Shown here piece after piece: positions 10,426-38,961 of a stretch of DNA of 64,000 bases. The notes beneath the pieces are model-generated. The model was not told the origin of the DNA. It ran no database searches and was given only the letters and a program-made list of their open reading frames with translations. The translations under genes and the position numbers were made by a program. Location: contig NZ_FCOJ02000005.1 of NCBI RefSeq assembly GCF_001545035.1, positions 124,001 to 188,000 on the forward strand, read 5' to 3'. Numbering within the stretch: position 1 is the first letter of the stretch; each line of letters begins with the position of its first letter. The stretch is from Caballeronia glebae (lineage in GTDB: Bacteria; Pseudomonadota; Gammaproteobacteria; Burkholderiales; Burkholderiaceae).

Positions 10426-10992
10426 ATGAGTTCATCCATCCTCAAGCCGCTGCACGTCGACCTGAGTCACGCGCAATGGGGCTGGCTCGCCTATCGCGGC
10501 ATTCTGGCCATTCTATTCGGCATTCTGGCGTTCGCGTGGCCAGGCGCGACGCTCGCGTCGCTTGCCATTGTGTGGGGCGCGTATGCCGTCGTGGATGGTC
10601 TGTTCGCGCTCACCTACGGCATTCGCAGCCAGTCGCGACGCTGGACCTTCGTTCTTTCCGGCGTCGTGGGCGTGGTAGCCGGTCTCGTCGCGCTGTGCTT
10701 ACCGGCCCTCACCGCGATCGCCTTCGTCGCGATCATTTCCGTCTGGGCCGTCTTGACCGGCCTAACCGAAGTGACTTATGCCATTCAGCATCACGCAAGC
10801 AATAGCCATCGCGGGCTCATCGGCGTGTCCGGTCTGCTGTCCATCGCGATCGGTGTCATCGTTTTCTGTTATCCGGTCGCTGGCGCGATTTCGCTGGTCT
10901 GGCTCGTCGGCGTGTATGCCATCGCCTATGGCGTGGCCGTGCTCGCCGCCGCATACCGGCTGCGCGCGCTGCGTCACGCACACACGGTCTGA
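10426..10992 (+). CDS. HdeD-family (DUF308) membrane protein
   Basis: This 188-residue integral membrane protein shows about six short hydrophobic helices arranged as repeated pairs, beginning WLAYRGILAILFGILAFAWPG and repeated around ALTAIAFVAI and LLSIAIGVIV. This is the DUF308/HdeD pattern; E. coli HdeD is an acid-resistance membrane protein, but the role here is unknown. The ATG (MSSSILK) follows AAGGAG by 9 nt, which rules out the open extension 31 codons upstream. It is flanked by about 265 bp on each side and is probably monocistronic. Confidence 0.83.
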   Translation: MSSSILKPLHVDLSHAQWGWLAYRGILAILFGILAFAWPGATLASLAIVWGAYAVVDGLFALTYGIRSQSRRWTFVLSGVVGVVAGLVALCLPALTAIAFVAIISVWAVLTGLTEVTYAIQHHASNSHRGLIGVSGLLSIAIGVIVFCYPVAGAISLVWLVGVYAIAYGVAVLAAAYRLRALRHAHTV

Positions 10993-11055
10993 CGCGAGGC
11001 CTTTGCACAGGCCATCCAGCACGCGGCCAGGCGGCGGCGTTATGACGTTTTCCGC

Positions 11056-11084
11056 TATACTTCACCACTAACGAGAATTTCTCG
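11056..11084 (+). promoter_or_regulatory. Candidate metX promoter -10 box and overlapping palindrome
   Basis: TATACT at 11056-11061 resembles a -10 box; no good -35 is seen at 17 bp. Just downstream, CGAGAA and TTCTCG (11072-11077, 11079-11084) form a 6-bp palindrome around one base. It would sit at about +5 of the transcript and could be an operator or a small RNA hairpin. Confidence 0.35.
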
Positions 11085-11094
11085 AACATGAACA

Positions 11095-11250
11095 GCGCGC
11101 CGATTTGCTGACTCGATTGCGGGCGCGCGAACTTCAGTGATTATTCACGGGCGTTCACTATAAATGCGGCTAAAGAGGTCGTCAGCCGCGCTCGATTCTC
11201 CAGGCAGCGCATCGCCGACACCGTTTAGCCGCTTGGTCAAAGGCGGAATG
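11095..11250 (+). ncRNA. SAM-II-like riboswitch in the metX leader (long-insert variant)
   Basis: P1 is a 7-bp stem (GCGCGCC 11095-11101, GGCGCGC 11122-11128). Its loop starts GATTT and ends ATTGCG, like SAM-II loop 1 (GAUUU...UUGCA). Downstream, TATAAATGCGGCTAAAGAGG (11159-11178) resembles the SAM-II 3' segment (AUAAAUGUAGCUAAAAAGG); UUGCG and UGCGG can pair as P2 with wobbles. The segments are separated by an extra hairpin (GTGA 11137-11140, TCAC 11145-11148, within GAAC 11129-11132 and GTTC 11153-11156). GCGGCTAAA (11166-11174) is perfectly complementary to TTTAGCCGC (11224-11232) near the metX ribosome binding site. The position before a methionine gene fits SAM feedback. The assignment is from motif comparison by eye, not a covariance search. 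Confidence 0.7.
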
Positions 11251-11251
11251 A

Positions 11252-12397
11252 ATGGAATCGATCGGCATCGTCACTCCCCAAACACTTCGCTTCGCCGAGC
11301 CGCTCAAGATGCAGAACGGCTCGTCGCTCGGCGACTACGAACTCGTCGTCGAAACCTATGGCGAGCTGAACGCCGCGCGATCGAACGCCGTGCTCGTGTG
11401 CCACGCGTTGAACGCGTCGCATCACGTCGCGGGCATTTACGCCGATAACCCGAAAGACGTCGGCTGGTGGGACAACATGGTCGGTCCCGGCAAGCCGCTC
11501 GACACGAACCGCTTCTTCGTCATCGGCGTGAACAATCTCGGCTCGTGTTTCGGCTCGACCGGGCCGATGAGCATCGACGGCGCGACCGGAAAACCGTACG
11601 GCGCGAGCTTTCCCGTCGTCACGGTCGAGGACTGGGTGAACGCGCAGGCGCGACTCGCCGACCGCTTCGGCATCGAGCGCTTCGCGGCCGTTATGGGCGG
11701 CAGCCTCGGCGGCATGCAGGCGCTCGCGTGGAGCACGATGTATCCGGAGCGGCTCGCGCATTGCATCGTCGTGGCGTCGACGCCGAAACTGTCCGCGCAG
11801 AACATCGCGTTCAACGAAACGGCGCGCTCCGCGATCCTCTCCGATCCCGACTTCCACGGCGGCGATTACTACGCGCACGGCGTGAAGCCGCGTCGCGGCC
11901 TGCGCGTGGCGCGCATGATCGGCCACATCACGTATTTGTCGGACGACGACATGGCCGTGAAATTCGGCCGCGCGCTGCGTCGTGCCGAAGGCGCGCTCGA
12001 CGCATACAACTTCAACTTCGACGTCGAGTTCGAAGTGGAATCGTATCTGCGCTATCAGGCCGACAAGTTCGCCGAATACTTCGACGCGAACACGTATCTG
12101 CTCATCACGCGCGCGCTCGATTATTTCGATCCGGCGAAAGCCTTCGAAGGCGATCTCACTAAAGCCCTCGCCAACACGCAGGCGAAATATCTCATCACCA
12201 GCTTCGCGACCGACTGGCGTTTCGCGCCCGCGCGCTCGCGCGAAATCGTGAAGGCGCTGCTCGACAACAAGCGCACGGTGAGCTACGCCGAAATCGACGC
12301 GCCGCACGGCCACGACGCCTTCCTGCTCGACGACGCGCGCTATCACAATCTCATGCGCGCCTACTACGAACGCATTGCCACGGAGATCGGCGCATGA
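11252..12397 (+). CDS. metX: Homoserine O-acetyltransferase (MetX family)
   Basis: This 381-residue alpha/beta-hydrolase activates homoserine for methionine synthesis, using acetyl-CoA or possibly succinyl-CoA. The nucleophile is Ser151 in GGSLGG. The catalytic His is in DAPHGHDAF near residue 352, and an Asp lies in FATDWRF near 321. [12 protein letters not shown] near 95 is typical of MetX. An AAGG site precedes the ATG by about 8 nt and lies next to GGCGG, which could pair with the upstream CCGC. The stop overlaps the metW start (ATGA), a hallmark of the proteobacterial metXW operon. The riboswitch-like leader suggests control by SAM. Acyl donor preference cannot be read from the sequence with certainty. 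Confidence 0.95.
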
Positions 12398-13002
12398 ACC
12401 AGCACACACTCGATTCCCTCGCGCTGCGCTCGGACTTTCGGGCGATCGCCCGCTGGGTCGAACCGCGCTCGACGGTGCTCGATCTCGGCTGCGGCGACGG
12501 TTCGCTGCTTTCGCTGCTCGGCGAAGAGCTCGAAGTGAAGGGCTACGGCATCGAAATCAACGATGCCGGCGTGCTGGCGTGCGCGCAAAAAGGCGTGAAT
12601 GTGATCCAGCAGAATCTCGAAGACGGCCTGCGTCTGTTCGAAGACGACAGCTTCGATTTCGCGATTCTCTCGCAGACGCTGCAGACGATTCACCAGACCG
12701 CCGCGATCCTGCGCGAGACGGTGCGCGTCGGCCGACAGTGCATCGTGTCGTTTCCGAATTTCGGTTATTGGCAGCATCGGCTCGCGGTGATTCAGGGGCG
12801 CATGCCGGTGTCGAAATCGCTGCCCTTTCAGTGGCACAACACGCCGAACGTGCGCGTGCTCACGATCAAGGACTTCGAGGCGCTCGCACCGGAAGTGGGT
12901 ATCGAGATTCTGGATCGCGTGGTGCTGCACGACGGGCAGTCGGTCCGTTGGGGCGCGAACTTGCGTGGTAGTCTTGCGGTCTATCGCGTGAAGCGCCGGT
13001 AA
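12394..13002 (+). CDS. metW: Methionine biosynthesis protein MetW
   Basis: This 202-residue protein has a class I methyltransferase fold, with the SAM-binding loop [12 protein letters not shown] near residue 28 and the sequence SQTLQTIH near 92. MetW is encoded with metX in many proteobacteria and is reported as needed for MetX function or methionine synthesis. Its start overlaps the metX stop by 4 nt, so translation is probably coupled. The length and C-terminal VYRVKRR are normal for the family. Confidence 0.95.
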
Positions 13003-38106: not shown

Positions 38107-38961
38107 TCAGAAGCGGCCGTTGCGCGCCATCTCCATTAGCCGCGCGACGCGCTCTTCCGTTGCCGGGTGCGTCGAGAACAGGTTCGCGATGCCGCCGCCC
38201 GACAGCGGATTCATGATCATCATCTGCGCGGTCGCCGGGTGCGCTTCGGCCGTCGGGAACGGCACGCCGGAAGCGTACGCGTGGATCTTTTCGAGCGCGC
38301 TCGCGAGCGCTTGCGGATCGCCCGAAATTTCCGCGCCGCCGCGATCGGCCTCGAATTCGCGCGCGCGGGAAATCGCCATCTGGATCAGCGCGCCCGCGAT
38401 GGGCGCGAGAATCGCCACCAGAATGCTCGCGATCGGATTCGACGGGCGGCCTTCGTCGTCGCGCCCGCCGAAGAACATCGCGAAGTTGGCGAGCGCGGAG
38501 ATCGCGCCGGCCATGGTCGCGGAGATCGTCGAGATCAGGATGTCGCGGTGCTTCACGTGCGCCAGTTCGTGCGCCATCACGCCGCGCATTTCGCGCTCGG
38601 AGAGCACGCGCAGGATGCCCGTGGTCGCCGCGACCGCCGCGTGCTCGGGATTGCGCCCCGTGGCGAAGGCGTTCGGCGCGTCTTCGTTGATCAGATAAAC
38701 GCGGGGCATCGGCAACTGGGCGCGCGTGGAAAGCTCGCGCACCATGCGATAAAACTGCGGCGCGGTGGTCTCGTCGACTTCCTGCGCGTTGTACATGCGC
38801 AGGACCATCTTGTCCGAGAACCAGTACGAAAAGAAATTCATGCCGAGCGCGACAATCAGCGCGAGCATCATGCCCTTCGATCCGCCGATCATTCCGCCGA
38901 TCACGACAAAGAGGGCCGTGATCGCAGCCATCAGCATCGCGGTTTTGACCCAGTTGAACAT
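38107..38961 (-). CDS. htpX: Protease HtpX
   Basis: This 284-residue inner membrane M48 protease degrades misfolded membrane proteins and is part of the envelope heat-shock response in E. coli. Two N-terminal helices (about 5-55) precede the zinc motif HELAH (in [14 protein letters not shown], near 130); two more hydrophobic segments follow, and the third ligand Glu is in [12 protein letters not shown] near 205. The ATG follows AGGAG by 8 nt, correcting a longer open frame. Confidence 0.95.

Follow-up and report, generated by a model that had tools for sequence, protein, structure and literature searches.

We consider it quite probable that the metX-metW leader of a Caballeronia-like genome is a SAM-II riboswitch that combines a SAM-V-like P3 hairpin with an indirect translational expression platform. 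Its SAM-II-type pseudoknot aptamer occupies positions 11095-11180 of the window (the whole 64-kb stretch of DNA analysed here), upstream of metX-metW (Table 1). In the proposed mechanism, the pseudoknot 3' strand (11166-11186) would, without SAM, pair with an anti-strand (11213-11232) once the latter has been transcribed, ahead of the ribosome site; ribosome site and start codon would then stay open, so that metX-metW would be translated. With SAM, 11166-11180 would be held in the pseudoknot, and the freed anti-strand would fold onto AGGCGG and the start codon, turning translation off. We infer the masking function, the direction of the switch (SAM = off), and the co-transcriptional timing.

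The aptamer and its conservation upstream of metX

The genome measures 7.84 Mb, and the nearest named relatives of its MetX come mostly from Caballeronia (96-98% protein identity). A first-pass annotation had described a P1 stem with a SAM-II-type loop and 3' strand split by an additional hairpin, and all of the strings and coordinates that it gave were recovered: GATTT (11102-11106), ATTGCG (11116-11121), CCGC (11229-11232), GCGG (11243-11246), and AGCCGC (11184-11189). The SAM-II-type 3' strand region reads TATAAATGCGGCTAAAGAGG at 11159-11178. We take T11104-T11106 to be U10-U12 in SAM-II numbering. The TATACT hexamer upstream recurs in many of the named leaders inspected; a promoter scan of the metX leader did not have it among its reports.

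Table 1. Features of the metX leader and the genes that follow it, in window coordinates
Feature	Position	Strand	Remarks
TATACT, -10-like hexamer 5' of the leader	11056..11061	+	Direct reading; putative promoter element
P1 5' strand GCGCGCC	11095..11101	+	Seven pairs formed with 11122-11128
GATTT, third strand of the SAM-II binding core	11102..11106	+	Sequence; role by homology with SAM-II/SAM-V
P2a 5' strand GAC	11110..11112	+	Partner GTC 11178-11180
TTGCG, P2 5' strand	11117..11121	+	G11119-C11170, C11120-G11169, G11121-C11167
P1 3' strand GGCGCGC	11122..11128	+	Partner of 11095-11101
P3, the additional hairpin within loop 3	11129..11156	+	Basal pairs 11129-11132 / 11153-11156
ACTATAAAT, remainder of loop 3, A-rich strand	11157..11165	+	Largely conserved in alignment A1; placed like the SAM-V A-minor strand
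GCGGCTAAAGAGGTC, pseudoknot 3' strand with GGCTAAA binding core; putative switching strand	11166..11180	+	
Anti-strand	11213..11232	+	Predicted alternative partners: 11166-11186 (ON) or ribosome site/start (OFF)
AGGCGG Shine-Dalgarno site	11241..11246	+	Predicted OFF form: pairs with 11229-11234
Start-codon region	11249..11255	+	Predicted OFF form: pairs with 11221-11227
metX	11252..12397	+	NCBIfam NF047916, homoserine O-succinyltransferase MetX
metW	12394..13002	+	TIGR02081

For comparison, metX leaders were chosen by protein similarity alone, namely 80 named contigs retained from the search plus 60 family genomes out of 106 with metX, the latter spanning 20 genera besides the genus of our genome. 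The exact core pattern (GAUUU, UUGC, GCUAAA), which itself served as the definition of presence, was found in 132 of these 140 leaders: 79/80 named and 53/60 family leaders, the 53rd via a wider upstream stretch. The seven remaining family leaders, whose genomes are no larger than 2.8 Mb, had no match to our covariance model R1 within about 420 bases upstream of metX. One Burkholderiaceae genome (G369, 2.0 Mb) carries a compact element without the hairpin ~300 bases before metX (L277 227-285, 36.5 bits). Among metX leaders of other Burkholderiales families, the element was present in 8/23 within the stretch examined. The single named leader without the core pattern (L015, 'Candidatus Burkholderia brachyanthoides') appears to be interrupted, because Rfam finds a group II intron there (RF00029, 45.7 bits, L015 10-85), just ahead of where the pseudoknot strand would resume with its second half; the contig ends inside this match.

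Model R1 was built from 45 leaders including our own, and alignment A1 holds 44 distinct rows. Rows left out were the interrupted L015, L127 and L138 (no parse), L173 (mis-parsed), L174 and L176 (unparsed), and eight family leaders that gave no parse, one of which, L202, proved to have a compact element farther upstream; against R1, L127 scored 24.1 bits and L173 holds the element, and L138, L174, and L176 gave no match. In our genome, R1 scored the metX leader at 98 bits and the next best place at 17.6 bits. A second match within the window (38675-38770, 15.4 bits, E 0.013) was taken as chance.

Over P1, P2, P2a, and P3 together, 93.6% of the cells of A1 were paired against 88.3% upon shuffling, and covariation was 0.172 against 0.092 (0/500 shuffles in both cases); sliding the partners by 1-3 columns as a control gave 23.8-43.7% paired cells and a covariation of 0.017-0.048. 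P1 and P2 are mostly invariant in A1, and the covariation stems from P3, the outer P1 pairs, and P2a. P1 was paired in 92.5% of cells, with double-sided changes in two of its seven pairs and the other five invariant; all three P2 pairs were invariant in the family alignment. P2a was paired in 93.9% of cells and showed double changes in 2/3 pairs. Swapping the arms of P2a gave 0/2000 over all rows and 26/2000 in the phylum-level set, and was not significant in Burkholderiaceae alone (111/2000) or in the order/class set (663/2000).

The basal pairs of P3 were paired in 90.3% of cells, with double changes in all four. Across 15 groups, P3 arms paired with their own partner at -8.8 kcal/mol versus -5.3 kcal/mol when swapped, and 0/2000 swaps were as good. 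The additional hairpin is thus well supported, and compensatory changes, which the first-pass annotation had proposed to seek in relatives, do occur. Its claim that classical SAM-II lacks this hairpin also held, loop 3 being 8 nt long in all 29 parsed phylum-level loci. Loop 3 of our leader, hairpin included, has 37 nt, and the range of 16-111 nt across 131 Burkholderiaceae leaders gauges what size of insert the fold may tolerate. The loop-closing pair 11121-11167 (pair 24-40) showed no exception among 178 parsed elements, being G-C 155 times and A-U 23 times; on our own reading, it is the Watson-Crick pair that was predicted for the last loop base of SAM-II (Barrick and Breaker, 2007; PMC2258182).

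Kinship with SAM-II

At the gathering level, Rfam returned nothing in the window except two tRNAs. With E up to 10 over 10501-11700, the sole match was SAM_alpha (RF00521, gathering cut-off 36 bits) at 14 bits, aligned to P3 instead of P1; neither SAM_V (RF01826) nor SAM-II long loops (RF01726), a family listed in a table of Weinberg 2010, matched in that search. Among 299 phylum genomes, 57 matched RF00521 at E <=0.001 (49 above the cut-off). Five of the matches lie in Burkholderiales; these are compact versions of 28-36 bits, one of them above the cut-off. A bridge between the forms is provided by the compact order-level elements. In the reverse direction, R1, although built without such sequences, matched 5/30 phylum-level SAM-II loci outside the class (E 5e-7 to 1.3e-3); of the others, six followed at E 0.03-0.16 and one at 0.38, and 18 went unmatched at E up to 1. 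Rfam's model misses the leader itself, yet the SAM-II kinship seen by the first-pass annotation is well supported by the core residues, the Burkholderiales relatives, and the reciprocal R1 matches; of the refuting outcomes that the annotation had listed, absence of a covariance-model hit came out half true. Because of the loop-3 insert, the leader has neither a qualifying Rfam score nor the short loop 3, and we count it as SAM-II by descent.

By our own mapping, the nucleotides around the ligand of SAM-V and SAM-II have counterparts in the leader, and by homology we take the ligand to be SAM. There is a slim chance that this member of the class binds another ligand (e.g. SAH) or no longer binds at all, since inserting P3 might change the folding and the SAM assignment is made by homology. 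Such a change sits poorly with the core pattern in 132/140 leaders chosen by protein and, for another ligand, with the U, U, and A of the SAM-versus-SAH triple of SAM-V, which are matched among 11104-11106, 11117-11118, and 11172 in our mapping.

Predicted pairings of the anti-strand with the aptamer and the ribosome site

The 9-bp complementarity between GCGGCTAAA (11166-11174) and TTTAGCCGC (11224-11232), on which the first-pass annotation had built a switch, was confirmed in the sequence and extends further through GGT/ACC, GTC/GAC, and GC/GC. As part of this longer helix (the ON helix, 11166-11186 with 11213-11232, -24.5 kcal/mol, z -3.35), it exceeds chance, with 0/200 dinucleotide shuffles equal. 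The proposed covering of the ribosome site through CCGC-GCGG is likewise present as a pairing and extends over the start codon (the mask, 11221-11234 with 11241-11255, -16.8 kcal/mol), but its pair count alone stayed at shuffle level in 19 of 20 representative leaders (<=5% of shuffles in one, L235). Also present is a 6-bp alternative (11166-11171 with 11184-11189); this was the weaker claim, because it is intact in just 85 of 118 terminator-less leaders (see below), and we rejected a role for it as the key switch.

With P1 forced, the ON and OFF forms of our leader were predicted at -67.8 and -67.6 kcal/mol, a difference of 0.2. For nascent RNA ending at 11232-11250, the ON helix was predicted at 0.97-1.0, and it already forms with the RNA end at 11232, when the ribosome site is not yet transcribed. 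Blocking the pseudoknot strands gave the OFF hairpin at 0.96-1.0 for ends 11246-11275. The ribosome site was masked at 0.945 even in the free, unconstrained fold to 11275, and adding coding sequence to 11300 brought the mask down to 0.23 despite the blocked pseudoknot; because of these two values, equilibrium folding alone is no proof of a switch. Across 99 leaders of the nearest groups, the median predicted accessibility of the ribosome site was 0.302 when free, 0.300 with a similarly long control stretch blocked, and 0.157 with the pseudoknot strands blocked. A fall of more than 0.3 upon blocking occurred in 27/99 of them (17/99 with 10 more bases, 6/99 in the first version), and we rejected thermodynamic accessibility as proof on account of its weakness.

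A scan for a hairpin with a U-run between core and start found none in our leader, and the plus strand of 10950-11300 is without a terminator-like site. On the opposite strand (11189-11166), there is a terminator-like hairpin with a T-run and a nearby promoter-like match, which may arise incidentally from the conservation of this strand. The hairpin with U-run is absent from 116 of 118 leaders of our group (11 genera), and present in 14/14 leaders of five other Burkholderiaceae genera, in 16/17 parsed elements of other families or classes, and, by a strict rule, in 8/29 phylum-level loci. These counts bear on transcription attenuation, proposed by Leyn et al., in which the leader would end transcription, intrinsically or through Rho, when SAM is bound. 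The terminators of the relatives and the report of terminators consistently present downstream of the metXZ element (Leyn et al., 2014; PMC4239095) speak for it. In our leader and its group, we nevertheless regard attenuation as unlikely, given the absence of such hairpins, an absence that bears on the hairpin type and not on Rho-dependent ending.

Where genera of the terminator-less group differ in letters, the anti-strand differs too, and both of its partners are still matched. The exact 9-mer TTTAGCCGC occurs in 72/99 leaders of the nearest groups and the 7-mer TAGCCGC in 94/99; in the remaining 19 terminator-less leaders, the 9-mer is found in 0/19, and other letters pair instead. Group g186 has the pairing GGCTAAAGC/GCTTTAGCC (with CCACC/GGTGG in L197), g179 has AAAG-GGTCG/CGACC-CTTT plus CTTTGG/CCAAAG, g180 (L226) pairs GACCCTTTGCC with GGCAAGGGT, and g28 (L229) pairs CGACCCCTTTTCC with GGAAAGGG. 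Ribosome sites as different as GGCGG, GTGG, GGTGG, GGGG, AAGGG, and AAAGGG each adjoin their own complement. In local folds, the anti-strand pairs with the ribosome site or start (at least 4 pairs) in 116/118 terminator-less leaders, the exceptions being L192 and L228.

When genera exchanged their ribosome-site arms and the entire region could pair, the outcome was not significant (957/5000; 768/5000 with one leader per genus), and the local folds and the following shuffle test were chosen after that result. Twenty representatives were hand-picked from the 118, leaving out L192, which shows no masking, and the region between was shuffled 300 times. Both pairings jointly reached their real values in <=4% of shuffles for 19/20 representatives, with L228 failing. 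It is the ON helix that accounts for this outcome; on its own, it stood at <=5% of shuffles in 13/20 and was no better than shuffles in L227, L228, and L235. Once a longer region could take part, this helix stood out strongly in g186 and among the nearest groups (median z -2.6 to -3.3), and g179, g180, g185, and g187 gave no significance (median z -0.1 to -0.7). Complementarity between the anti-strand and the pseudoknot strand is significant in most groups, and the comparison across leaders supports the strand-exchange mechanism as predicted from sequence. A MetX tree accounts for the platforms with one change, but its support is weak (56/88) and falls short of showing a single origin; L275, which has no element in its metX leader, was mislabelled as belonging to the terminator group in this tree.

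Two further readings concern the pseudoknot strand itself. GAGG at 11175-11178 could be the working ribosome site, with the start at a distance and direct occlusion by the pseudoknot, as reported for S. meliloti, where metA depends on the GAGG of its SAM-II to be translated from an AUG that lies 74 nt further on (PMC9373788); the corresponding spacing to the metX ATG is 73 nt. We hold this to be quite improbable here, since GCGG replaces GAGG in 11/118 terminator-less leaders, an ordinary site (AGGCGG) stands at -11 to -6, and the conserved anti-strand would be left unexplained. Alternatively, the ATG at 11164, which is conserved in 108/118 leaders, could open a leader peptide or act as a coding signal. 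This is barely credible, and we rejected a peptide from 11164: the ATG is missing in 10/118, frame lengths vary (20, 21, 25, 28, 29, and 61 codons being the commonest, and 57 frames having no stop in the stretch examined), and the ATG sits in the pseudoknot strand, its letters accounted for by structure.

Comparison with known elements

SAM-II-like elements also precede other methionine genes. RF02424 (Bp2_287) stems from an RT-PCR-supported sRNA screen, whose authors raised the idea of an element acting in cis on methionine genes (PMC3521395). All 14 RF02424 loci examined (L240-L253) carry the SAM-II core and, in loop 3, a small insert, and an N-terminus of MetZ lies close by in each (the family model was run on one); four loci inspected have a terminator-like hairpin with a U-run. 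Judged by these 14 sequences, the RF02424 'sRNA' is a metZ-leader SAM-II. It scored above cut-off in 23/100 family genomes. That RF02424 might act antisense to metX, where weak matches occur, was rejected because the strong matches sit before metZ. The family thus differs from our leader in sitting before metZ instead of metX and in its terminator-like hairpin. Our own genome has nothing above the RF02424 cut-off (best 25.7 of 70 bits); before its metZ (L254 1410-1500), no aptamer was seen, and a terminator-like hairpin with a U-run lies between the upstream stop and metZ, a pattern as if the metZ aptamer had been lost. In two class-level genomes (L167 and L168), metK is preceded by a SAM-II-like element of compact form together with a U-run hairpin; the L168 ORF, a 107-residue fragment, matches TIGR01034 (metK, E 4.7e-47, below the whole-protein cut-off), and the L167 ORF starts alike.

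Our leader is very likely, from its position and pairings, the metXZ element of Leyn et al., 2014 (PMC4239095), described in 35 beta-proteobacterial genomes with a proposed attenuation through terminator and antiterminator. The two share the place before metXW, the bacterial group (8/8 Burkholderia genomes), and conserved regions with a proposed pseudoknot; they differ in that the downstream terminator and U-tract of metXZ are absent from our leader. In the parts of that report considered here, metXZ was not linked to SAM-II, and a SAM_alpha search gave only Rhizobiales and Rhodobacterales; an occurrence of SAM-II in beta-proteobacteria had been mentioned already in 2007. Several Burkholderiales genomes (e.g. 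G038, G046, and G605) have two or three R1 matches versus the one per genome reported in 2014. The leader is accordingly read as a SAM-II of a beta-proteobacterial form that was very likely noticed in 2014 under another name, and it has a loop-3 hairpin and a probable three-way translational platform.

If our reading is right, the metXZ element gains a likely ligand and an explanation, SAM-II annotation in beta-proteobacteria is extended (164/300 Burkholderiales genomes match R1 at E <=0.001), an Rfam 'sRNA' family would be re-labelled as riboswitches, and a natural series emerges in which one aptamer class is joined, depending on the genus, to a terminator or to a ribosome-site mask. The titles and abstract openings of the open-licence literature searched held no description of an anti-strand platform. 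We lean, with some reserve, towards the view that the Burkholderiaceae SAM-II platform is new: an anti-strand shared by the pseudoknot 3' strand and the ribosome site with start would have replaced the terminator of relatives, its letters turning over repeatedly under a constant three-way topology, on an aptamer that joins a SAM-II core to a SAM-V-type P3; SAM-II, SAM-V-like forms, metXZ, and RF02424 would then be one continuum.

With SAM-II, the leader shares the H-type pseudoknot of P1 and P2 with P2a, the GAUUU third strand, the UUGC / GCUAAA core, the loop-closing pair 24-40, and a methionine gene downstream. It differs in loop 3 (37 nt with a hairpin versus 8 nt) and in its platform, which is a predicted anti-strand here and a terminator or direct masking of the ribosome site in P2 there. 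The translational SAM-II at S. meliloti metA (Scheuer et al., 2022; PMC9373788) likewise controls translation, as predicted for our leader; its ribosome site, however, lies inside the pseudoknot strand, and the parts of that report cited here mention no anti-strand. SAM-V, as described in the sections of the literature considered, has in common with our leader a P3 stem-loop directly after the P1 3' strand, followed by an A-rich strand along P1, as well as translational control (predicted here). In SAM-V, however, masking is done by P2a, whereas in the metX leader it would fall to a separate anti-strand.
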